DNA from: Gemmatimonadota bacterium
GTDB lineage: Bacteria; Gemmatimonadota; Gemmatimonadetes; Longimicrobiales; Gaopeijiaceae
DNA length: 64,000 nt
Reading direction: 5' to 3'
NCBI GenBank assembly: GCA_030428885.1
Contig: JAUIEJ010000014.1
Location: 1-64,000 of the forward strand
In this document: positions 1 to 11,368 of the stretch, in pieces
How the letters are laid out: each line of letters opens with the position of its first letter
Position numbering within the stretch: the stretch's first letter is position 1
Position numbers and translations under genes: made by a program
Notes under the pieces: model-generated
Told to the model about the DNA's origin: nothing
Database searches by the model: none
Seen by the model: only the letters and a program-made list of their open reading frames with translations

Positions 1-145
1 TCACGATCTTGGTGTAACTGCCCCAATAGGGGCGCAGCAGCAGGGCCGCCCGAACGAATCGTGCCGCGGAGTCGCGCAGCGTCGGGACGGGACGACTAGC
101 CGAAGATGTCGTTGTCAAAGTCGCCTCCGTCCGTCCGCGCCACGC
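1..145. other. no gene identified at left edge
   Basis: Neither strand carries a convincing reading frame in this stretch. It lies downstream of the minus-strand RiPP operon. The minus frame with a TGA at positions 1-3 is open only back to another TGA at 115-117, too short to interpret. Confidence 0.4.
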
Positions 146-1954
146 CTAGCGGAGAACCGTGATTCGCCGTCGGGTCTCGAACTGCTGCCCGGTACCCCAC
201 GCGGCTCGGAGGATCACGGAGTACTCGCCCTCCGGTACATTCTCCAGGTCGAGGATGATCGCGCGCGGCGAGACTGGGCCGCCGGCGGGTTCCCTCCAAC
301 CCAACGTGACGCCACCCTCCTCGGAGCCGCCGACGAATATCCGTCGGAGCCTGTCGATGAAGCCGCCATCCTCCTCGTCTTCGATCTGGATCTCGTACTC
401 GATGGGCTCATCGGCCGATGCCCCGTAAAGCTCCCAGTACAGGCCGACCTCCCCTGGACCGTCGAGTGTAGTGGTGCCCAGCATGAGGGCGGCAGCCTCG
501 ATGAGGGCTCCGGGTTCCGTGAGACCCGTCGGCTGGTAGAGAAGCACATCGGAGAGGCCACTCCCGTCTACGTTCAAGGGCTGGAGCATCTCCCGGTGCC
601 AACCGATGCCTGCAGGGCTCAGGATCTCGAAGCTGGTCACATAGGGACGGGGCGTTGCATCCGCGAGGTAGACGGCGCGTCCTTCGTGGAAGGCGGCGGG
701 CAAGGTCAACGGGAAGCTCTCCGGCGCGTCGCTGAGGACGAGGTAAGCTGTGTCGGCGGCTTCCTCGATTTCCGTACCGGTTACCGAACCGGCGACGGCC
801 AGCCGCATGTCCGTAGCATCACCCGATCGAGGCGTTGTTGCGCCGGATCCCGACTCCTCAATCGCCCGGAAGCGCGCGATCTGGAAGGGTACGGGATAGA
901 AGGGCGCGTAGGGCGGCGTGTATCCCTCGTCCCCGATGTCGCCGATCAGCTTCCACGTCGGCCTCGACAGGTCGCCGTCCTCGAAGTCGGGTACGAAGTG
1001 ATAGCGGGCGGCTCTTTGGCTGGTCCAGCGCCGAGCGAAGTTCAATGGCGTTCGCGACATTCGCTGTCTGTCGTGCGAATCCCAGGGACCGCGTCTGACG
1101 ATGAAGGCCTTCCGTACGGCGGCGTACTCCCCGCGGCCCGGTGCAGTCGGGTGGGCGTCCAAGAGCTCGAAGTAGATTCGTTGCTCGACGACTCGTGCCA
1201 CGTATTCAGCCCACCGGTCGTGCCCTTGTACGACGTAGAGAGGGTCTGCATACCACCAGATCGAGTCCGAGGCGGCGACCCTCTCGGAGCAATCGGTGCG
1301 GCGAATCAGAGATCGCCAGATCGGCGGAGCAGGCGCGGGACTCTCCCGAGGCGACCACCAGGTCCGGAGCCAGTTGGCATCCGTCAGCTCACATGCGACC
1401 GAATCGGGCGCTGCGGCCACACTCGACCTGAGAGCCGCCTCGGCGGCATCCATTCGCCCCATCGAGCGCAGGATGAGGCCTCGGAGGGCGTCGCACCACC
1501 ACTCAGTCGCTTGGCACCGATCCACCAGTGCCATTGCTTCGTCGAGCCGGTCCTGACGCTCGAGCGCGCCCACAGCCTGTCCGAGAACAAATCCCGAACC
1601 TGGCGCGGCGATCGCTGCATCCGTCAGTACTCGAAGCAACGGTTCGCGAGAGACGTGACAGGGGAAGTCGGGTGGACACTCTGCGGCCGCCCAATCCCCG
1701 CCGAAGCACTGGTATCCGTCGTCCGGACTGCACGTGGTCCGGAGGTAGTTCGCGAGCTCTCTCCGAACGTCTCTATCTGCCGAAGGGGGCGAGAAGTATA
1801 GTCCGATTCGCTCCAGATTGTAATAATGTTCGATAATCGCCTCTACCACCTCACCGCGCTGGACTACCGTGTCGGCCTGCTGCGCTGCGCCTACGTGCGC
1901 CACGAGCAAGCCGGCCAGGAGCAGTCCAACGCTAAGTCCGGTCGTCCGTGTCAC
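146..1954 (-). CDS. secreted protein of unknown function, last gene of the RiPP operon
   Basis: This 602-residue protein has a clear N-terminal signal peptide (a hydrophobic stretch GLLLAGLLVA and an Ala-rich cleavage region ending GAAQQA), so it is exported. I chose the GTG at 1954 because AGGAGG lies 4 nt upstream of it; the upstream ATG at 1981 lacks a ribosome site and would put extra residues before the signal peptide. Residues about 90-190 contain alpha-helical, Ala/Leu-rich sequence like TPR repeats, with several cysteines around 75-100. The C-terminal third is beta-rich and ends in a segment that resembles an Ig-like or carboxypeptidase-regulatory fold (a pattern such as LENVPEGEYSVILRA). 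I do not recognise the family. Its place behind a lanthipeptide precursor allows a role in immunity, sensing or processing, but nothing in the sequence shows this. Confidence 0.8.
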   Translation of the reverse strand: MTRTTGLSVGLLLAGLLVAHVGAAQQADTVVQRGEVVEAIIEHYYNLERIGLYFSPPSADRDVRRELANYLRTTCSPDDGYQCFGGDWAAAECPPDFPCHVSREPLLRVLTDAAIAAPGSGFVLGQAVGALERQDRLDEAMALVDRCQATEWWCDALRGLILRSMGRMDAAEAALRSSVAAAPDSVACELTDANWLRTWWSPRESPAPAPPIWRSLIRRTDCSERVAASDSIWWYADPLYVVQGHDRWAEYVARVVEQRIYFELLDAHPTAPGRGEYAAVRKAFIVRRGPWDSHDRQRMSRTPLNFARRWTSQRAARYHFVPDFEDGDLSRPTWKLIGDIGDEGYTPPYAPFYPVPFQIARFRAIEESGSGATTPRSGDATDMRLAVAGSVTGTEIEEAADTAYLVLSDAPESFPLTLPAAFHEGRAVYLADATPRPYVTSFEILSPAGIGWHREMLQPLNVDGSGLSDVLLYQPTGLTEPGALIEAAALMLGTTTLDGPGEVGLYWELYGASADEPIEYEIQIEDEEDGGFIDRLRRIFVGGSEEGGVTLGWREPAGGPVSPRAIILDLENVPEGEYSVILRAAWGTGQQFETRRRITVLR

Positions 1955-1999
1955 TGCCCCTCCTGTCCGTAATCCTGGCATTGTGGCGATTCGGCGCGA

Positions 2000-2059: not shown

Positions 2060-2404
2060 TCAATGGGTCATACAGTCTTCGCTATCGCAGGAGGCGGCGC
2101 AGGGGTTGCAGGTATTCTCGCCCACGCAGGTTTCCTCCCAGGTGTAGCAGCCGATCTGGCTGAGGCAACCGAACGTCGGGTTCTGCGGCCCGCAGGTTCC
2201 GCCGTTCGTGTAGTTGGTGCAGTCGTCGCTTTCGTCGCATCCTCCTTGGCCTCCCCGACAAGAGGGCGAGACGCCGTTGCAGGTCCACTCGCAGACCGTA
2301 TTCGCCATCGCGAACACGGTGCCCTCCTCGCCCTCGGCTCCCCCGCTGGTCATGAAGGACTCGACCTTCAGGGCATGGAGGTCGAGCCGGATCTTCTTCT
2401 TCAT
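2060..2404 (-). CDS. cysteine-rich RiPP (lanthipeptide-like) precursor peptide
   Basis: A 114-residue peptide with a basic start (MKKKIRLDL) and the leader motif L-x-x-L-x-V-x-S-F-x-T (LHALKVESFMTS), as in precursors of pinensin-type and related class I lanthipeptides. A Gly/Glu-rich stretch follows (GGAEGEEGTVFAMA), a possible cleavage region. The rest holds 13 cysteines and 16 Ser/Thr residues spaced a few residues apart, ending in CMTH. It sits directly behind LanB and LanC genes, so the core is probably dehydrated and cyclised, although disulfides are an alternative. AGGAGG abuts the ATG at 2410 with no spacer but lies 6 nt before the ATG at 2404, so I use 2404. The longer form would overlap the cyclase gene stop by ATGA. 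The core length is unusually long for a lanthipeptide. Confidence 0.85.
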   Translation of the reverse strand: MKKKIRLDLHALKVESFMTSGGAEGEEGTVFAMANTVCEWTCNGVSPSCRGGQGGCDESDDCTNYTNGGTCGPQNPTFGCLSQIGCYTWEETCVGENTCNPCAASCDSEDCMTH

Positions 2405-2406
2405 CT

Positions 2407-4380
2407 TCATCCTCCTCTCTGGGCAACGCCGGTTTGCCGTGTCGCGTCCTCCCGAGCGGAGGACGCCTCCGCTTTCCGCGCCACGGCGTCCGCCGCCACG
2501 CGGGGTGCCAGACTACGAGCGAGCGCAGCGCGCACAACGACGCACGCCTGAACCAACTCGAGAAGCTGTCGATGGACCCACGACGCGAATGCGTCGGGCT
2601 GTGCGTCCGCGAAGCCGCGAAATCGGTCGGCGATCTCTTCCTCGGTGCCCGGGGACCGTAGGCATTCGAGGAGCGCTCCGAGCGCGCTTGAAACACTACG
2701 AGCCGCCCACCGGCCCGAAGGTTCAGGATAGAGCAGCAAGGCGCCTGCATCGGTCTCGACCACCGAGGCCCACGGCGCGAAGACCAGGCGCTCCGAGCCC
2801 ACTTGGCGCAGCCGGCCACGGCGAAGGAGCAACAGGACGGTTCGGTCTAGTCCTTCTTCCGCTCGGCGGATCGCGGCTTCATCTTTCATGAACTGAACGG
2901 CAACATTGGGGTCCGCCACCGCCTTCGCTCGGGCCTTGATCGCGTCGACGAGCGTCGACGACGTCGACCTATCGGCGGAGATGCCCTTGGAGGTGAGGGC
3001 CGCAACTTCTTCCTCGTGCATGGTCGAGGCGGACCACGGAAACAACTCGCTGAGGATCTTCGCCCTCACTGGTGATGCATCGTCTACCGCCTTTGGCGCT
3101 CCGGCGGAACGCCTCGGTATGGGAAACACGGCGGAAACGACGCAATGATCCAGTTCGAGGAGCCCCAGGCCCACTCCCGCATCGCCGAGCATCAGTGAAT
3201 AGTCGGGCTGCACCCGCTCCGGTCCTCCGGGCACCCACCGAGCATCTCGTGCCTCCAATTCGCGCGCCCTGGTCCGCAGAAGCTCCCTAAGCGCCGGCTC
3301 CACCCGCGCTGGCGCGCCAACCATCCGGCCGATGAGAAGGGCGGCAACGGCATTGCCCACGGATCCATGGCAGATGCTGTCGCTCTTCCACCCGAGGTTG
3401 AGCCATCTAGCGGTTGTCTCCCGAGCATCTTCGGCCTCAACCCGATAGCGGTCCGTCCCGAGGACTTGAAACGCTCGCGCGCGAGTCAAGCCGATGCCGG
3501 GTGCACCGTGGCACCACGCGGTCATGAACCCCTTGTCGTAGAGCGGCGCCGGCTCCCCCTTGGCGAGCAGGGTGTCGACTTCGCGAATTCGACCGTCTGT
3601 GATGATCTCCGTGAGTTCGTTGTTGCGGAGGTCGGGCCAGTTCCGCTCACCGGCGTCATATTGACTCTCCTCATAGTGGAATGCCTCCTCGGCGGCCAGC
3701 CGAAACGACTCCCGCCCGGTGCGAAGCGAGAGCTCGAGCAGAGGCCATCCGATGCCCGCTGCGCCGTGGCCCAGTCCGCACAGATTTCCGCCGCGCGCTA
3801 CGCCAGAATGCCACGAGAGACCCTGTGGCTCGACGAAGGCCGATTGCAGAAGGTGGGTGCCGAGACGATCGCACATGGACTCAACGAGGTCCCCGCCAAA
3901 GACATCCGCTACCCCGAGGAGACCGATGATTGCGCCACTGGCACCCCCGATGTAGTCACATCCTGGGTCGGCGGGGTTCTCGGAGAGATCCGACAGTAGT
4001 TCCAGGGCTAGTGACCGGAGGACCGGGTCGTCTGACCTTCTCAGGAACGCGCCAGCCGCAAAGATCGTCCCTACGTCACCGGAGTACAGGGAGAACGGAA
4101 GGCCGTCGTCGCTTTCCGAGTGGAGCGCGAAAAGGAGGGCCTCGCGGGCGACGTCGCGAAAGTCCGAGCGTCCCGTGACCCAGGCAAGTTCGGAGAGGAA
4201 GAGCGCGACCCCGGCCGACCCCCGGTACAAGGACCCATCCTGCAACCGCCGCTCGGTGCGGCGAGGGCGGCTACCGCGCACGAGTTCATACCCGTACCAC
4301 GATACACCGTCTGGTCCACGGACCACCGAAGCGAGAATCCCCTCCCCGAGTCTCTCGGCGACCTCAGTGGCCCAGCTCAC
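2407..4380 (-). CDS. LanC-type lanthionine cyclase with C-terminal extension
   Basis: A 657-residue protein. Residues 1-415 match LanC cyclases: an alpha-toroid with glycine-rich repeats (RGSAGVAL, GGASGAIIG, CGLGHGAAG) and the zinc site formed by Cys290 (AWCHGAPGIG) and Cys337-His338 (ICHGSVGN), plus the late motif LMLGDAGVGLG. LanC adds cysteine thiols to dehydroamino acids to close (methyl)lanthionine rings. About 240 further residues follow, whereas typical LanC proteins end near 400-430. The extension includes an acidic helical part and a segment around 560-630 (DAGALLLYPEPS, then SPGTEEEIADRF) that could be a winged-helix/PqqD-like peptide-binding domain; that is inference. Its GTG start overlaps the preceding gene stop by 4 nt, implying coupled translation. 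It could also be a bifunctional enzyme. Confidence 0.88.
   Translation of the reverse strand: MSWATEVAERLGEGILASVVRGPDGVSWYGYELVRGSRPRRTERRLQDGSLYRGSAGVALFLSELAWVTGRSDFRDVAREALLFALHSESDDGLPFSLYSGDVGTIFAAGAFLRRSDDPVLRSLALELLSDLSENPADPGCDYIGGASGAIIGLLGVADVFGGDLVESMCDRLGTHLLQSAFVEPQGLSWHSGVARGGNLCGLGHGAAGIGWPLLELSLRTGRESFRLAAEEAFHYEESQYDAGERNWPDLRNNELTEIITDGRIREVDTLLAKGEPAPLYDKGFMTAWCHGAPGIGLTRARAFQVLGTDRYRVEAEDARETTARWLNLGWKSDSICHGSVGNAVAALLIGRMVGAPARVEPALRELLRTRARELEARDARWVPGGPERVQPDYSLMLGDAGVGLGLLELDHCVVSAVFPIPRRSAGAPKAVDDASPVRAKILSELFPWSASTMHEEEVAALTSKGISADRSTSSTLVDAIKARAKAVADPNVAVQFMKDEAAIRRAEEGLDRTVLLLLRRGRLRQVGSERLVFAPWASVVETDAGALLLYPEPSGRWAARSVSSALGALLECLRSPGTEEEIADRFRGFADAQPDAFASWVHRQLLELVQACVVVRAALARSLAPRVAADAVARKAEASSAREDATRQTGVAQRGG
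2411..2416 (-). promoter_or_regulatory. Shine-Dalgarno site that decides the precursor start
   Basis: The minus strand reads AGGAGG here, inside the last two codons of the cyclase gene. It lies 0 nt from the ATG at 2410 and 6 nt from the ATG at 2404. A perfect site with ideal spacing favours the second ATG and predicts strong translation of the precursor. Confidence 0.7.
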
Positions 4381-5318
4381 GCTATTGCCCCAGATGGGGT
4401 CTCTCTAACGAGCGCCGTGGCAACGAGTCGGCACGCGAGGACTTCAACAACCGGGGGTACGCCTAACCTATTCAGGTGCATGTGGATGTAGCTGGACGCC
4501 AGCCGGGGTAGCGCGAAGGAGGGAGGTGATGCGGTGCCATCACCGAACGAAATGCGCCCGTGGGCCGAGGCGCACTGGAGTTCGTCTCGGGCGCGGACCA
4601 GGCGAGCGGCTGCGGGCGAGAGCGGCTCGGGCAACGCGTCCGGCTGGCTGGCCACCGAGCCGATGAGCCGCAACTGGTCGAGCAGCCCGGATTCTCCCTG
4701 GGCCAATCGACCGTATCGTTCGCCGACCTCAGCGGCGTCAGTTGAGTCCATCCGGCTTCTGAGGTGGGTATGCTCATACCGCTCGAGGGTGCGAAGAAGG
4801 GGCGTCGCACCAGCTTCGGTGGTCAAGCAGGCGGCATGAATCAAGAGGCCCGCCGCAGCATGTCCGATTCGGAGCGCCATCCGGTCATGAGAGGCCGCCA
4901 TTAGCCGAAGGGTGTCCAGGACCAGCACGGACGAGGCTTCGAAGACACCCTCGGAGATGCCGACACCAATGGTGCCCCCGTAGCGGGCGACCTCGGGTTG
5001 GTAGACTTCCTTCCGGACGCGAGCAACTCGGGTCAATCTCGTCGTCCGGTTGTATGCGGCTACCGCTCCGCTGACGACTTCTCGAGCGTTCTCATGTCGA
5101 TCAGGGTGCAGGCGAAGGCGAAGGCGAACGTGCCCCTGCGGGTCGCGGTATCGGATGAAGAAGAAGCCACTGAGCTCGTCGGCTAGATCGCCCACCGCCG
5201 GCGCCACGACTTCGAGGAGGACCTGATCCGCTTCTGAACCGTAGACCTCGGCCCAGCCGGACCCTTGGTGTGCAAGATCGAGGTGGAGGCTCAACCAACC
5301 CACCGCTGAATCAGGCAT
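4377..5318 (-). CDS. LanB elimination subunit (SpaB C-terminal / thiopeptide-type domain)
   Basis: A 313-residue protein matching the domain that in full-length LanB enzymes removes glutamate from glutamylated Ser/Thr. Diagnostic stretches are FFIRYRDPQGHVRLRL near residue 52, YQPEVARYGG near residue 105 (the conserved Y-x-P-E-x-x-R-Y-G), and SYIHMHLNRLG near residue 275. Here it is a separate gene that overlaps the dehydratase N-part by 8 nt and the cyclase by 4 nt, so the enzyme is split, as reported for pinensin biosynthesis. It probably acts as a complex with the larger subunit in the cytoplasm on the leader-bearing precursor. Confidence 0.9.
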   Translation of the reverse strand: MPDSAVGWLSLHLDLAHQGSGWAEVYGSEADQVLLEVVAPAVGDLADELSGFFFIRYRDPQGHVRLRLRLHPDRHENAREVVSGAVAAYNRTTRLTRVARVRKEVYQPEVARYGGTIGVGISEGVFEASSVLVLDTLRLMAASHDRMALRIGHAAAGLLIHAACLTTEAGATPLLRTLERYEHTHLRSRMDSTDAAEVGERYGRLAQGESGLLDQLRLIGSVASQPDALPEPLSPAAARLVRARDELQCASAHGRISFGDGTASPPSFALPRLASSYIHMHLNRLGVPPVVEVLACRLVATALVRETPSGAIA

Positions 5319-8019
5319 GGGCCATCTCGCTATGCGCGTGTCGAGGAGCCGGCGAGTTGTAGGGAACGTCGACCTGTAGGATGGCTTCAGTCACCCAACT
5401 GAGGCCCGAAGCGTCCCGTGGTAGCTGGTCGGAGTCGGGGAGACATTCCTCGAATACCAACGCGCGGTCAGGGCCCAATGACTGGTAGTGCTCGAGCAGG
5501 TCCACGAGAAGTGGCGAGCGGAAGTCGATGTATTGCGGTCTCCTGAGGTCGCCGAGCCCGAATCGGTCGCCCTTGGCCTCGCGCCATGGCCACTCGATTG
5601 CTCGGGCGTAGGCTTGTTCCGGCAAATCGTGGTGGGTCCTGAAACGCCGTAATCTACGGAAGTATCCCGAGGCGCCGACCTCTTCCCGGCGGGGAAGAGC
5701 GGACAGTTTCACCACCCACGCGTGCCGGGCGATCACGACCGTCTTACCGAAGATGATCCGGGGTCGTTGGAGTACGCCGTCCTCCGGCTCGGCGTCCTCG
5801 ACGGAGCGCCAGGGGATGTCGAGGTGCGCCTCTGATACCGGGGAGAACGCCCTCAGCAGTCGGTAAAGGGGTGGCCGAGCAGCAGGGTTCATGAAGCAGA
5901 GATCGACGGGAAGCACGCGTCGGCCAGAAGGTCGATGGACCAGGTCGAGACGAACGCCTGCTTGATCGGGCACCACATCCAGGTCGGCGACGCTGATGGC
6001 CTCATCACACCCAACGCGGTCGCCGGAGGGGTAGGAGATTTCGGTGGATCGAATTGGCGGTCGTAGGTTGGCGTTGAAGGCCTGGTCCCCGGCGATCTCG
6101 GCAAGTACCAAACCGGTGCCGCAATCATGCTGCTGACGGAGATCGTCGAGGACCCCTTGGGGCAAGAGGTACAGGAAGCGCGAGAAGTATTTGCCGAACC
6201 CGGAGTAGCCTCTCGCGCCGGGAGCGACGATCATCCCGCCCTCGAGTTCACCTGGGCGGGGCACCAAACAAGCGAAGACCGAGAACGACATGGGGTCCGC
6301 GGGTCTCGGCGCCACTCCTTGCGAGACGGCCTCGATATCCTCTCGAGTGATGAAGATTTCAGACGCACGCCCCGCCGCCTTCCATCGCTTCCCGATCAGC
6401 TCGGTGATGCGTCGGTGCGCGTTGCGTATCGCCTGGACCTCCGGTGGATACGGCGGAGCGCTCCTCTTTGCCGTCGGTGGGAGTAGGGCAGTCTCCGTCT
6501 GGTCGGGCGACGGATCGTCCGCTGCCGCCTGATCCGGCGCCAACGCCGGATCCGTACGTGGGTCGTGCGACGGCTTGACTACTTCTCGGTAGTAGACTTC
6601 GTAGAACGTAAGCAACGGCACCGAGGGTGCAGAAAAGCGATCCTTGAAGAAGCGGCGAAGCTGCAGAGGCTCACGGCGCATCCAGGCGACAGGTGTCAAG
6701 ACGGTCAACAATTCCTCAAGCTCCCGGAGGGCCACCCCGAAATGATCTCTGTCGATGGCTAGAGTGCAGTTGGCGGAGGCGTCCTCGAAGAGGGGCGGTC
6801 GAGGGGCTGGAGTCTCGACCGGATACCATTGGTCGAACGAGTCCTGGATGAGGCGCTCCAGATTCGAGATGGGCTTGTTGCGAGCGCCGACTGGCGCGGA
6901 CTCGATCTCCGCCAGGGCTCCGTCCAGAGCGCGAAGGAACTCCTGTAGATTATCCGCAATCGGGCTCTTCTCCACGGTCGCGATCACCGCCGTCAGGGGT
7001 GCGGTCCAATCGGGCCGGTTGGCCAGGCCGGGCAAGTCGGGCTGCAGCAGTCCCAACGACATGAGGTGGTCGAGGTAGGCGATGGCCTCGTCGCCGGAGG
7101 CCTCGACACTGACGTTGGTGACCAGCGCGCGCGCCAACGACTCGATCGTGCTCGTCCCCTTCGTGCGCAGAGAATCGATCACAAGATCGATCGCGGCGTT
7201 TCGCGTGATCGTTTGGAATCCCTCTCGGCCACTCTGGGCGGAAAGGCAACGGTGAGAGGTCTCGTGCGACACGAGCGTGGGGTTGAGCCGCACGGGTAGT
7301 TGCCGACGAGCCTCCTCACAGGAGGAGAGGTGACCCAGCACGTATTGAAGAATGCGCTTGTTGAGCCGGAACTTGCTCCACTTCCGGGACGGAGAGCCGG
7401 CCATCAGGAGGGGAAGATCGAGATCGCCGAATCGCCCGGGTATGATCGCGCAGAACCTCGCAAACGGAGTAGCCTTTGCGGCGGCCCGCGTAAGGTACCT
7501 CAGTACGGATCTCTCGACCTTCGAGGCGAGCCGACATCCGCCGCCCGCAGGCGACAAGCGATTCGCCAGACTCGGGCTGGACAGTCGAATCGCCGAGGCG
7601 AAGTCCTGGTTTTCGAGGAGGCCGAGAACCGCAGCGCCCTCTGCTGCAGCTTCGTTCGCGTAGGCCCTATCCGAGCTTCGCTCACGGGACTCTAGGTCGC
7701 TGAGGGCGGATACCGCATCTTCAACAGCCTCGAGAACAGCCCCCTTCAGGCAACTCAGATCACCTTCACGAGGCGTACGGCCGTTGAACAGGTCTCGTCG
7801 TAAGCGGAGCGCTTTCCGGCGCGCTCGCGATGTGAGCCCGGGGATCGCGTCGTAGAGAGCATCCCCGGCGAGACTCGAGAGCCGTTGGGACTCGATCCGA
7901 CGCTTCTCAACGGAGTCCGCGTCCTTGGCTGCGTTTCGCGAGCCAAGGTCCAAACACGACCACGGAAGCCCTGCGGTGCGGACGACGCAGTGTTGGAACC
8001 AACTTCCTTGGCTGCCCAT
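5311..8019 (-). CDS. LanB glutamylation subunit (lantibiotic dehydratase N-terminal domain)
   Basis: A 902-residue protein of the class I lantibiotic dehydratase family. It begins with the typical VVRTAGLPWSCL element near residue 12 and carries KATPFARFCAI near residue 180, equivalent to the K/R-x-T-P-F/Y-G-x-F motif of LanB. This part transfers glutamate from glutamyl-tRNA to Ser/Thr of the precursor. The elimination domain is missing here and is encoded by the next gene. The ATG at 8019 has GAGGAAG about 5 nt upstream. Being the first large gene of the set, with 152 nt to the upstream sigma factor, it may have its own promoter. Family assignment is firm; substrate assignment to the cysteine-rich peptide is from context. 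Confidence 0.9.
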   Translation of the reverse strand: MGSQGSWFQHCVVRTAGLPWSCLDLGSRNAAKDADSVEKRRIESQRLSSLAGDALYDAIPGLTSRARRKALRLRRDLFNGRTPREGDLSCLKGAVLEAVEDAVSALSDLESRERSSDRAYANEAAAEGAAVLGLLENQDFASAIRLSSPSLANRLSPAGGGCRLASKVERSVLRYLTRAAAKATPFARFCAIIPGRFGDLDLPLLMAGSPSRKWSKFRLNKRILQYVLGHLSSCEEARRQLPVRLNPTLVSHETSHRCLSAQSGREGFQTITRNAAIDLVIDSLRTKGTSTIESLARALVTNVSVEASGDEAIAYLDHLMSLGLLQPDLPGLANRPDWTAPLTAVIATVEKSPIADNLQEFLRALDGALAEIESAPVGARNKPISNLERLIQDSFDQWYPVETPAPRPPLFEDASANCTLAIDRDHFGVALRELEELLTVLTPVAWMRREPLQLRRFFKDRFSAPSVPLLTFYEVYYREVVKPSHDPRTDPALAPDQAAADDPSPDQTETALLPPTAKRSAPPYPPEVQAIRNAHRRITELIGKRWKAAGRASEIFITREDIEAVSQGVAPRPADPMSFSVFACLVPRPGELEGGMIVAPGARGYSGFGKYFSRFLYLLPQGVLDDLRQQHDCGTGLVLAEIAGDQAFNANLRPPIRSTEISYPSGDRVGCDEAISVADLDVVPDQAGVRLDLVHRPSGRRVLPVDLCFMNPAARPPLYRLLRAFSPVSEAHLDIPWRSVEDAEPEDGVLQRPRIIFGKTVVIARHAWVVKLSALPRREEVGASGYFRRLRRFRTHHDLPEQAYARAIEWPWREAKGDRFGLGDLRRPQYIDFRSPLLVDLLEHYQSLGPDRALVFEECLPDSDQLPRDASGLSWVTEAILQVDVPYNSPAPRHAHSEMAHA

Positions 8020-8171: not shown

Positions 8172-8723
8172 TCACCCCCCCCCGTCCCCAAGAGTGGACA
8201 CCCAGACCTCGGCACCTCCACGGGCCTCGAACCACGACCGGATAAGACGCCAACCTCGGGTGCGCTGCTTCTCCACACCACCGATGCTCGAGCCGCATTC
8301 CTCGGCCACCTCGGATGCCGTGAGGCCGTGGAGCACAGTCAGGGTCATCACTCGACGGCACCGGGTTGGGAGGGCGGCGATGGCCATCCGGACCGCCCGG
8401 TCCGCCTCGCCTCGGATGGCCCGATCTAGCGGCCCCATCGACGGGTCCACGAGTTCCGGCAGGTCCGCGAAGCGGTCGCCCTGCGCCCGAATCCGCAGCG
8501 CCTCGCGCCGAGCCGCCCCGCGGAAGTACGATGCCGGGTCGCGAATCTGGTGCCACCGTCCCGAGTCCCAGAGCCGCAGGAAGACGAGCTGAGTCACGTC
8601 GTCGGCGTCAGCCTCGCTTCCCGTGACCGACAGCGCCTCGAGCCGGACAAGGTCACGCCAACGGCGATAGACGGCCGAAAAGCTCTCCCGGCCTCCGACC
8701 TGGGGGGTCCGTTGCGCGACCAC
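8172..8723 (-). CDS. ECF-family RNA polymerase sigma factor
   Basis: A 183-residue sigma-70 factor with only regions 2 and 4. Region 2 (residues about 20-85) includes DADDVTQLVFLRLW, the core-binding and -10 recognition part; region 4 (about 115-165) includes a helix-turn-helix around LTASEVAEECGSS. The GTG start at 8723 has GGAGG 6 nt upstream. No anti-sigma gene is adjacent. It lies on the same strand just before the lanthipeptide genes, so it may drive them, though it could equally act elsewhere. The stop codon is preceded by a run of nine G on the coding strand (8175-8183), which could slip and change the C-terminus. Confidence 0.88.
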   Translation of the reverse strand: MVAQRTPQVGGRESFSAVYRRWRDLVRLEALSVTGSEADADDVTQLVFLRLWDSGRWHQIRDPASYFRGAARREALRIRAQGDRFADLPELVDPSMGPLDRAIRGEADRAVRMAIAALPTRCRRVMTLTVLHGLTASEVAEECGSSIGGVEKQRTRGWRLIRSWFEARGGAEVWVSTLGDGGG

Positions 8724-8842: not shown

Positions 8843-11263
8843 TCACGGCCGCCTCCCGTCCAGCCACAGCAGCACCGGCGACGCCACGAAGATCGACGAC
8901 AGCGTCCCGACCACGATTCCGAAGCTCATGACCAGCCCCAGAGGCCGCACGACCGGGCCGGCGAGGGTGGCCAGGAGAAGGGCGGCCCCCAGCGTCGTGG
9001 CGGTGGTCAGCACGGTGCGGGGAAGGGTCTGATTGATGGAGTCGTTCAACACCTGGCGGAGACTTCGACCCGACGACCCGCGCAGGTTCTCCCGCACCCG
9101 GTCGAAGATCACGATGGTGTCGTTGAGGGAATAGCCGAGCACGGTCAGCACCCCCGCCACGGTGACCAGGCTCACCTCCAGGTCCAGGAACGAGATGAAG
9201 GCCAGCGTCGCCAGGATGTCGTGGGCGGTGGCCGCCACGGCGGCGAGTCCGAAGCGGCCCTCGAACTGAACCGCAAGGTAGGCGAGGGTGGTGGCGAAGC
9301 TGCCGGCGATGGCCAGGGCGGCCTTGGTCTGGAGTTCGGCGCCCACCTTGGGGCCGATGCCCTCACCACGCACCAGCTCGTAGGCGTCGCCGCCCAACTC
9401 GGCATCGAGGGCCTCTCGCGCGTGCCGCCGCACCGCCTCGGTATCGGTCTCGTCGCCCGACTCCGCGTCGGCGTCGGCGATGCGTGTGCGCACGAGGAAG
9501 TCGCGGTCGGACCCGAAGCTCTGGATCTCGGCGTCCCTCAGTGGAGTGTCGGCCAGCGCCGACCGGATCACCGTCGTGGTCACCGGCGCCTCGGTCCGCA
9601 CCTGGAGAAGCGTTCCCCCCGTGAAGTCGATGCCGTAGTTGGGCCCGCGGAACCCGAGCAACAGCAGCCCCGCGGCGACGAACAGGCCGCTGACGCCCAA
9701 CGCCCACTTCCGCCAGCGGAGCACGTCGTACGAGGCGTCGGTCAGCGAACGCAGCGTGCGGTAGTTCGGCGCGGTCGCCTTCCCCCGCTTGCGCAGCCAG
9801 ACCATGAACAGGGTCCGGGTCACGAAGATCGCCGCGAACATGGACGCGCAGAGGCCGATCAGGAGCATGACGGCGAACCCCTTCACGGCCTCGGTCCCCA
9901 CCAGGTGGAGGATCCCCGCCGTGAGGGCCGTCGTGACGTTGGAGTCGACGATGGCGCTCATGGCGTGACGGAACCCCGCGTTGACGGCGGCCCGTGTGCC
10001 CCGCCCGTCACGGAGCTCCTCCCGGATGCGCTCGAAGATGAGCACGTTGGCGTCGACGGCCATGCCGATGGCCAGGGCGAACCCGGCGATGCCCGGCAGG
10101 GTCAGCGTGAAGCCGAAGAGGGCCAGGCCGCTGATGGAGCCGAGCAGGTAGGTGGCCAGGGCCCCCACCGCGAGCACCCCCGAGAACCGGTACCAGCCCA
10201 CCATCATGACCATCACGAGGGCCACGGCCAGCAGCGACGTGCGCACCCCCGCCGCAATGGAATCTTCGCCCAGCGAGGGCCCCACCGTGCCGTCGGCCAC
10301 GACCTCCAGGGGCACGGGCAGCGCCCCCGCCCGGAGCACCAGGGCGAGGTCGCCGGCCTCGCGCATGGTGCGCCCCGGAAGCTCGATGCTCCCGGTGGAT
10401 CCAATCCGCTCCTGGATCACCGCCGGCCTTCCCTGCACCCGTCCGTCGAGGAGAATGGCCAGGTAGGCCCCGACGTTCCGGCCCGTGGCCTCGCCGAACA
10501 CCCGTCCCGCGGAGCGGGTCAACTCGAACTGCACCTGGGGCTGGGAGTCCATGGGATCGCGCGTGGACGTGGCGCCGACCAACTGCTCTCCCGTGACCAG
10601 CGCCTCCTCCGCCACGAGGTAGAACGGCCGGTACGCACGCCCTCCCACCGCCATGGACTCGGTGCCCCAGCGCACCTCGTGGGCGCGGGGGATGGCCCGT
10701 CGGGCGACGGAGCCGTCCAGGGCCTCCGCGACGACCTCCTCCAGGGCCTCGGGCACCCAGTACTCGCCGGGCGTCTGACCGCGCACGGGCACGCCCGTCT
10801 CGCCGATCGCCCGCTGCAGCACCTCGGCCAGAGCCGCGGTGCGGTCGTCGGAGTCCACGAGCCGTAGTTCCAGGTACGCCGTGCGCTGCACGATGGAGCG
10901 GGCCCGGTCGAGGTCCTGCTCGCCGGGAAGCTCCACGATGAGCCGGCACTCCCCGGCTCGCTGGACCACCGGCTCCGTGGTCCCCATCTCACTCATGCGT
11001 CCGCGGATCACGCGCTCGGCCCGGGCCATGGCCTCGGCGCAGTCCCCGATCTCGATCAACGATTCGTCGATCTCCAGGGCGAGGTGACTCCCCCCTCGAA
11101 GGTCCAACCCGAGTTCGATGGGCACCCGCCGGACCGTATCGACGACCACCCGGCCGCTGTCGGGGTCGATGGAGCGCTCGACGACCGGGCGGGGAACGAG
11201 GGAAAGAACGCCACCGACGATGAGCAGCGCGATGGGCAACAGACGTGACTGGAGCGTCTTCAT
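8843..11263 (-). CDS. secDF: fused protein translocase subunit SecDF
   Basis: An 806-residue membrane protein joining SecD and SecF. The SecD half has a first membrane segment near residues 5-20, the P1 region with ELGLDLRGGSHLALEI, a large periplasmic part, and five membrane helices around 330-490. The SecF half starts near 520 with its own first helix, then YGIDFTGGTLLQVR, and ends with five helices including SLNDTIVIFDRVREN. SecDF uses the proton gradient to pull exported proteins through SecYEG. I prefer the ATG at 11263 (GAGG upstream) to the GTG at 11305, because the upstream residues precede the natural first helix. Separate secD and secF genes are common; fusion is also well known. 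Confidence 0.93.
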   Translation of the reverse strand: MKTLQSRLLPIALLIVGGVLSLVPRPVVERSIDPDSGRVVVDTVRRVPIELGLDLRGGSHLALEIDESLIEIGDCAEAMARAERVIRGRMSEMGTTEPVVQRAGECRLIVELPGEQDLDRARSIVQRTAYLELRLVDSDDRTAALAEVLQRAIGETGVPVRGQTPGEYWVPEALEEVVAEALDGSVARRAIPRAHEVRWGTESMAVGGRAYRPFYLVAEEALVTGEQLVGATSTRDPMDSQPQVQFELTRSAGRVFGEATGRNVGAYLAILLDGRVQGRPAVIQERIGSTGSIELPGRTMREAGDLALVLRAGALPVPLEVVADGTVGPSLGEDSIAAGVRTSLLAVALVMVMMVGWYRFSGVLAVGALATYLLGSISGLALFGFTLTLPGIAGFALAIGMAVDANVLIFERIREELRDGRGTRAAVNAGFRHAMSAIVDSNVTTALTAGILHLVGTEAVKGFAVMLLIGLCASMFAAIFVTRTLFMVWLRKRGKATAPNYRTLRSLTDASYDVLRWRKWALGVSGLFVAAGLLLLGFRGPNYGIDFTGGTLLQVRTEAPVTTTVIRSALADTPLRDAEIQSFGSDRDFLVRTRIADADAESGDETDTEAVRRHAREALDAELGGDAYELVRGEGIGPKVGAELQTKAALAIAGSFATTLAYLAVQFEGRFGLAAVAATAHDILATLAFISFLDLEVSLVTVAGVLTVLGYSLNDTIVIFDRVRENLRGSSGRSLRQVLNDSINQTLPRTVLTTATTLGAALLLATLAGPVVRPLGLVMSFGIVVGTLSSIFVASPVLLWLDGRRP

Positions 11264-11368
11264 GGGCCGTGCCTCGTGAGTCCCGAATAGAACGATGACG
11301 AGCACACGCCCGGCCGCGTTCGGACGGCCCGGGGCGCTGCTCGAAGAAGTCGTCTGGGGTGTTCGGGA

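Follow-up and report, generated by a model that had tools for sequence, protein, structure and literature searches.

The gene at positions 2060-2404 on the reverse strand of the window (the whole stretch of 64,000 bases that was analyzed) probably encodes the precursor (LanA) of a pinensin-type class I lanthipeptide that would be large and acidic and carry several rings. The features of class I lanthipeptide biosynthesis are present, namely LanB glutamylation and elimination domains, a LanC cyclase, and an adjacent precursor with a Ser/Thr/Cys core, and genes encoding an ECF sigma factor, LanB-N, LanB-C, LanC, the precursor, and a 611-aa protein follow one another in this order on the same strand:

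8172-8723, reverse strand: ECF-type sigma factor, probable operon regulator (TIGR02937, 61.9 bits)
5311-8019, reverse strand: LanB-N, glutamylation protein, 902 aa (PF04738, E 1.4e-50)
4377-5318, reverse strand: LanB-C, glutamate elimination protein, 313 aa (PF14028, E 1.4e-37; TIGR03891, 105.8 bits, over its cut-off)
2407-4380, reverse strand: LanC cyclase, 657 aa, with a C-terminal extension (PF05147, E 1.9e-47, residues 47-411)
2530-2787, reverse strand: predicted RRE (PqqD-like) domain, LanC residues 532-617 (AlphaFold2 model and structure matches)
2411-2416, reverse strand: Shine-Dalgarno sequence AGGAGG, 6 bases before the ATG at 2404
2060-2404, reverse strand: LanA precursor, 114 aa, 13 Cys (open reading frame and match to leader profile A3)
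2303-2404, reverse strand: conserved leader, residues 1-34 (MKKKIRLDLHALKVESF...GTVFAMA), with the LxLD-type recognition box IRLD (alignment A3)
2063-2302, reverse strand: core, 80 aa, 13 Cys, 16 Ser/Thr, pI 4.05 (sequence count)
146-1981, reverse strand: 611-aa protein with a TPR-like stretch (weak TPR matches only)
1-118, reverse strand: 5' end of an ABC exporter gene, continuing on contig C17 at L091:8903-10684 (127-base overlap; PF00664 and PF00005)

The matches to PF04738 and PF14028 are both above the gathering score. In addition, a search with LanB-N profile A1 retrieves TbtB (chain 6ec7, E 1.4e-34), and LanB-C also matches NisB. The LanB-N, LanB-C, and LanC genes overlap by 4-8 bases, a gap of 152 bases separates the sigma factor gene from LanB-N, and the ATG of LanA follows the LanC stop codon after two bases. 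A homologue of the 611-aa protein was found near a LanB gene only in genome G115 (contig L024; 46.6% identity over 292 aa). Beside the operon, at 8843-11305 on the reverse strand, SecD and SecF look fused in a single 820-aa frame, as judged by eye.

The open reading frame of LanA is real and encodes 114 residues. The ATG at 2404, where the earlier note had placed the start, is a better start than the alternative in-frame ATG at 2410, because AGGAGG is spaced 6 bases from the former, whereas the latter overlaps the LanC stop codon and leaves no spacing to the Shine-Dalgarno sequence. The Cys content of the peptide exceeds chance (binomial P of 3.6e-11 for at least 13 Cys in 80 residues, with the three neighboring enzymes, which have 24 Cys in 1872 residues, as the reference). 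Of the window's 399 stop-to-stop frames with a length of 82 aa or more, LanA has the most Cys in any 82-residue stretch, and the runner-up has 10.

Leader and relatives

The leader carries IRLD, VESF, and GTV as its versions of the family motifs LxLD, VxSF, and GTV. Residues L7, V14, F17, G28, and T29 are invariant in alignment A3, which comprises 29 leaders from Gemmatimonadota, Acidobacteriota, and Ignavibacteria. Profile A3 matches the window leader at E 1.1e-14, which is partly so by construction, as this leader is itself a member of A3. Both FxLD and LxLD forms are described as class I recognition boxes in the part of the source consulted (PMC12710340). With the curated pinensin leader model NF038180, the window peptide scores 15.6 bits, under the cut-off of 24, and by this cut-off it is not a formal member of that family. 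The cut-off is exceeded by five of the 10 relatives scanned (L069, 35.8 bits; L025, 32.9; L059, 29.7; L056, 26.5; and L058, 24.3). Profile A3 matches just one gene among the best 150 of 161 candidates in the window genome (G000), LanA itself, and LanA is thus the only candidate substrate within that set.

LanB-N proteins of this type occur in two of the 121 genomes of the family (the window genome and G115) and in none of the five other genomes of the genus. They were found in at least 12 of 154 genomes of the order (E up to 1e-10, at most five candidates scored per genome) and in at least 12 of 395 genomes of a phylum sample (E up to 1e-30, at most two candidates scored per genome). A contig scan with the LanB-N sequence alone found no relative; with an alignment as the query, 19 loci were recovered from named genomes, several of them cut by contig ends. 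They belong to Gemmatimonadota, Acidobacteriota (including Thermoanaerobaculia), Ignavibacteria and related groups, and Saprospiraceae. The leader, the split LanB, and the extended LanC recur in related loci, and the cores differ but are all Cys-rich. The locus of the nearest LanB relative, in G115, breaks off within LanC, and the leader profile matched nothing in the G115 assembly.

In a protein search of 58 relatives, the gene itself was the only strong match to the core, and the best other matches (E 3.8e-6 and weaker) align mainly via the leader. None of the relatives found has a core that can be aligned with this one, so Cys conservation cannot be read residue by residue, and two invariant Cys columns in alignment A2 sit in gap-rich regions and are not conserved positions. 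Composition was therefore compared across 90 distinct leader-type precursors from 85 loci, excluding off-locus frames and cores outside 15-150 residues. Their cores contain 3 to 20 Cys, and the numbers of Cys and Ser/Thr rise together (correlation of 0.91 on raw counts, not corrected for core length). No homologue without cysteines, which the earlier note had named as a result that would speak against it, appeared among these 90 precursors or among the 69 sampled in genome G051, all of which have at least three core Cys.

Core and ring capacity

Taken after the family-conserved leader (residues 1-34, ending in GTVFAMA), the core contains six Ser and 10 Thr besides its 13 Cys; counting from SGG instead gives 92 residues with 13 Cys and 17 Ser/Thr. 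The 13 Cys and 16 Ser/Thr of the earlier note are found again in the 80-residue core, while its length of about 75 residues was slightly low. The earlier note's view that cysteines are far more numerous here than in most lanthipeptides is right for lanthipeptides at large but not within the peptide's own branch, in which 15 of the 90 precursors have 13 or more core Cys. Since the Cys-rich cores of the relatives span 3-20 Cys, 13 is a high but normal number for the branch.

If every Cys takes its own Ser/Thr from upstream, nine of the 13 Cys can be paired at a distance of 2-5 residues (7.9 in shuffled cores), 10 at 2-7 (9.1), 11 at 2-10 (10.3), and 12 at 2-15 (11.1). The spacing thus allows 9-12 thioethers; thirteen could form only if at least one Cys reacted with a Ser/Thr on its downstream side or closed a longer ring. 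Because the pairing capacity is only slightly above that of the shuffles, the sequence permits many rings but singles out no pattern. In the AlphaFold2 model of the unmodified precursor (mean pLDDT 53), the average exceeds 70 only in the first 20 residues and the core has no fold, with pLDDT of 40-46 per ten-residue block from residue 41, as is also expected from a shallow alignment.

Across 72 family cores clustered by similarity, Ser/Thr is enriched five residues before Cys (290/609 against 145.9 expected from shuffles) and directly before it (310/628 against 165.6), although the repeat-like cores of some relatives inflate these statistics. Both registers persist in the 48 cores with nine or fewer Cys (109/277 against 58.2 and 113/288 against 65.0, respectively). 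They are explained by tandem (S/T)Cxx units, which would put each Dhx five residues ahead of the Cys in the following unit, in an arrangement of overlapping rings. Near-perfect tandem repeats of GSTC or SGC units were also observed in precursors from Acidobacteriota and Gemmatimonadota (L056:13797-14132, L061:13909-14241, and L050 at 10241 on the reverse strand), which are candidates for regular thioether ladders. In the window core, the -5 register is absent (2/12 against 2.6 expected) and the -1 register is weak (6/13 against 3.2).

The missing -5 register, the irregular Cys spacings of 3-9 residues, and the acidity of the core, with stretches such as CDESDDC, would also fit a peptide in which few positions are dehydrated and cyclized and most Cys form disulfides or bind metal, with a small thioether part. 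We regard this as rather unlikely, as a dedicated LanB/LanC set adjoins the gene and the coupling of Ser/Thr to Cys throughout the family is not needed for disulfides.

It is far less probable that LanA is an unrelated, secreted, disulfide-rich protein located by chance behind a lanthipeptide operon. Its many Cys, its low Lys/Arg content, and its NF038180 score under the cut-off would agree with such a protein, but its leader aligns with, and is conserved among, 28 other precursors, its start codon directly follows the LanC stop codon, and it is the sole leader-profile match, and hence sole candidate substrate, among the best 150 of 161 candidates in the genome. Both the leader match and the operon contradict the reading as a secreted disulfide protein with an unrelated leader, which the earlier note had raised against its own proposal. 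From its leader and gene context, LanA is very likely to be the precursor of a class I lanthipeptide, and the lanthipeptide-type RiPP precursor first proposed is corroborated by the class I enzymes in the operon, the shared leader, and homologues rich in Cys and Ser/Thr. The patchy occurrence of the LanB type in the family and genus could also indicate a recently acquired or decaying cluster whose product is no longer made, but this is least probable of all, as all core genes are open, the LanC ligand residues are kept, and the biosynthetic genes overlap as in a working operon.

LanC extension and proposed biosynthesis

The LanC residues H205, C290, C337, and H338, which we take from NisC to be the zinc-ligand/catalytic positions, are conserved in every one of the 17 LanC proteins aligned. 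The best NCBIfam match of LanC is the LanM cyclase domain TIGR03897, under its cut-off. All 16 relatives chosen for the alignment (contig-cut copies and duplicates excluded; L063, with 504 aa, not aligned) carry the C-terminal extension, and homologues with it include those of L048, L053, L058, L061, and L068. The extension is common but not universal, because the LanC of L050, at 426 aa, lacks the length for it.

An AlphaFold2 model of the extension from a 16-row alignment is unreliable over model residues 1-68 and confident over residues 128-213 (block pLDDT 81-96), where strands are followed by three helices in a PqqD-like winged-helix fold. The top Foldseek ranks include NGO1945, PqqD, ThcOx, MccB, and lasso RRE proteins, although the best E is 4.8e-3 and none is below 0.001. 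With VIA-align, the Z-scores are 8.4 for TigE, 8.0 for TbiB1 with leader (rmsd 2.2, 85 aligned), 7.7 for MccB, 7.4 for the NisB RRE region, and 7.0 for TbtB. Pfam PqqD matches the homologue in L048 at E 0.026 and has no match in the window LanC. Since other winged-helix proteins (NO66 and a methyltransferase) score alike (Z 7-7.9), it is context and fold jointly that support the prediction of a leader-binding RRE fold. Such a domain would account for the ability of the cyclase to recognize substrates this diverse. The passages of PMC12710340 and PMC7470986 consulted mention no LanC-RRE fusion.

The window begins at base 1 of its contig, and its positions 1-127 are identical to the end of contig C17 (L091:10567-10693). 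Because the end of C17 repeats these first 127 bases, the genes for the exporter, a small protein, an S8-type peptidase (PF00082), and a beta-propeller protein, which follow in this order on C17, adjoin the operon directly. The small protein between exporter and peptidase appears membrane-fusion-like by position and by eye; Pfam gave nothing significant, and a search for HlyD homologues in its own genome gave weak matches only. The peptidase shares 40% identity with an S8-type protein of G115, and Asp, His, and Ser of the subtilase triad appear to align between the two, as judged by eye. Among the 19 related loci, the exporter was matched near full length at 34% identity or more in nine, and an S8-type peptidase was found in 10.

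From the gene order, the protein families, the conserved leader, and the zinc-ligand residues of LanC, all read directly in the sequence, we infer ring number, cleavage site, order of steps, and secretion as follows. The leader, with its IRLD box, VESF, and GTV, would be bound by the RRE of LanB-N and by the predicted RRE at the LanC C-terminus. LanB-N would then glutamylate core Ser/Thr using Glu-tRNA, and LanB-C would eliminate glutamate to yield Dha/Dhb. Addition of Cys thiols to Dha/Dhb by LanC would form several thioether rings, with about 6-11 expected, and left-over Cys may remain free or form disulfides. Export of the peptide would occur through the ABC exporter, and the leader may be cut off near GTVxxx by the S8-type peptidase encoded past the window edge. 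The product would most likely act as a secreted interference or signaling peptide; a cationic membrane pore is argued against because the core is acidic.

Known systems and precursor-rich sister genomes

Pinensins are small peptides with two rings. The window system shares with the class I, antifungal pinensins of Chitinophaga pinensis an LxL...VxSF-type leader, a split LanB, and a LanM-like LanC, but its leader is under the NF038180 cut-off, and its core of 80 residues with 13 Cys is strongly acidic. In the part of the source consulted, Bacteroidetes class I leaders have the form LxLxKx5L, and the pinensin LanB is split and the LanC LanM-like (PMC7268733). Geobacillin I is likewise class I with many rings and is described, in the part consulted, as having seven (methyl)lanthionines (PMC13343206). 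With 13 Cys in the core, the window product could exceed this number, and lanthipeptides with more thioether rings than geobacillin I would result if rings form as the sequence allows.

The split dehydratases of thiopeptides (TbtB type) also have the elimination domain on a separate protein, and TbtB is the best match of the LanB-N profile. Unlike in these systems, LanC is present in the window, and the PF14028 protein scores 34.8 bits with NF045556 against a pyridine-synthase cut-off of 325. ThaA/ThaM from Acidobacteriota, a phylum that also holds relatives of the window locus, combines a Cys-rich lanthipeptide core with a class II synthetase and a thiazole-forming oxidase, in which it differs from the window system (PMC13083261, consulted in part). 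Among the papers listed in the literature search, none was recognized as treating Cys-rich class I precursors of Gemmatimonadota. The window branch is a little-studied but recognizable branch of a known natural-product family.

Leader profile A3 has at least 148 matches in G051, at least 150 in G055, and at least 150 in G151, which are lower bounds from the best 150 of 300, 330, and 407 candidates, respectively, as well as 83 in G035, 75 in G045, and 49 in G043. G051 belongs to the same order as the window genome and to a sister family, presumably Longimicrobiaceae. It has one PF04738 (LanB) match, with all 10 candidates scored. A G051 sample of 171,322 bases, selected around matches, contains 69 complete leader peptides and one running off an end. 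All 69 are distinct, start with ATG, and contain up to 24 core Cys. Examples of the G051 precursors lie at L025:3300-7900 and L026:5200-9520.

As in the prochlorosin/SyncM systems, one modifying system in the sister family faces very many precursors that share a leader. In those parts of the sources consulted, the SyncM system comprises up to 79 precursors for one enzyme (PMC9872173; PMC12328550). Prochlorosins/SyncM are class II, whereas the window branch is class I with another leader, and the window genome, with one leader-profile match among the best 150 of 161 candidates, shows no multi-substrate set. As a class I parallel to the prochlorosins, the branch lends itself to studying the cyclization of many unlike cores by one enzyme set. 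We tentatively suggest, while considering it somewhat doubtful, that a class I system runs through the whole lineage and that the window peptide is its outlier with only one precursor. In this system, very large thioether ladders, perhaps of 10-20 overlapping rings, would be assembled by a split LanB and a LanC that bears an RRE, and in sister genomes a single LanB would serve more than 148 different precursors. To our knowledge, this would be the largest such substrate set.
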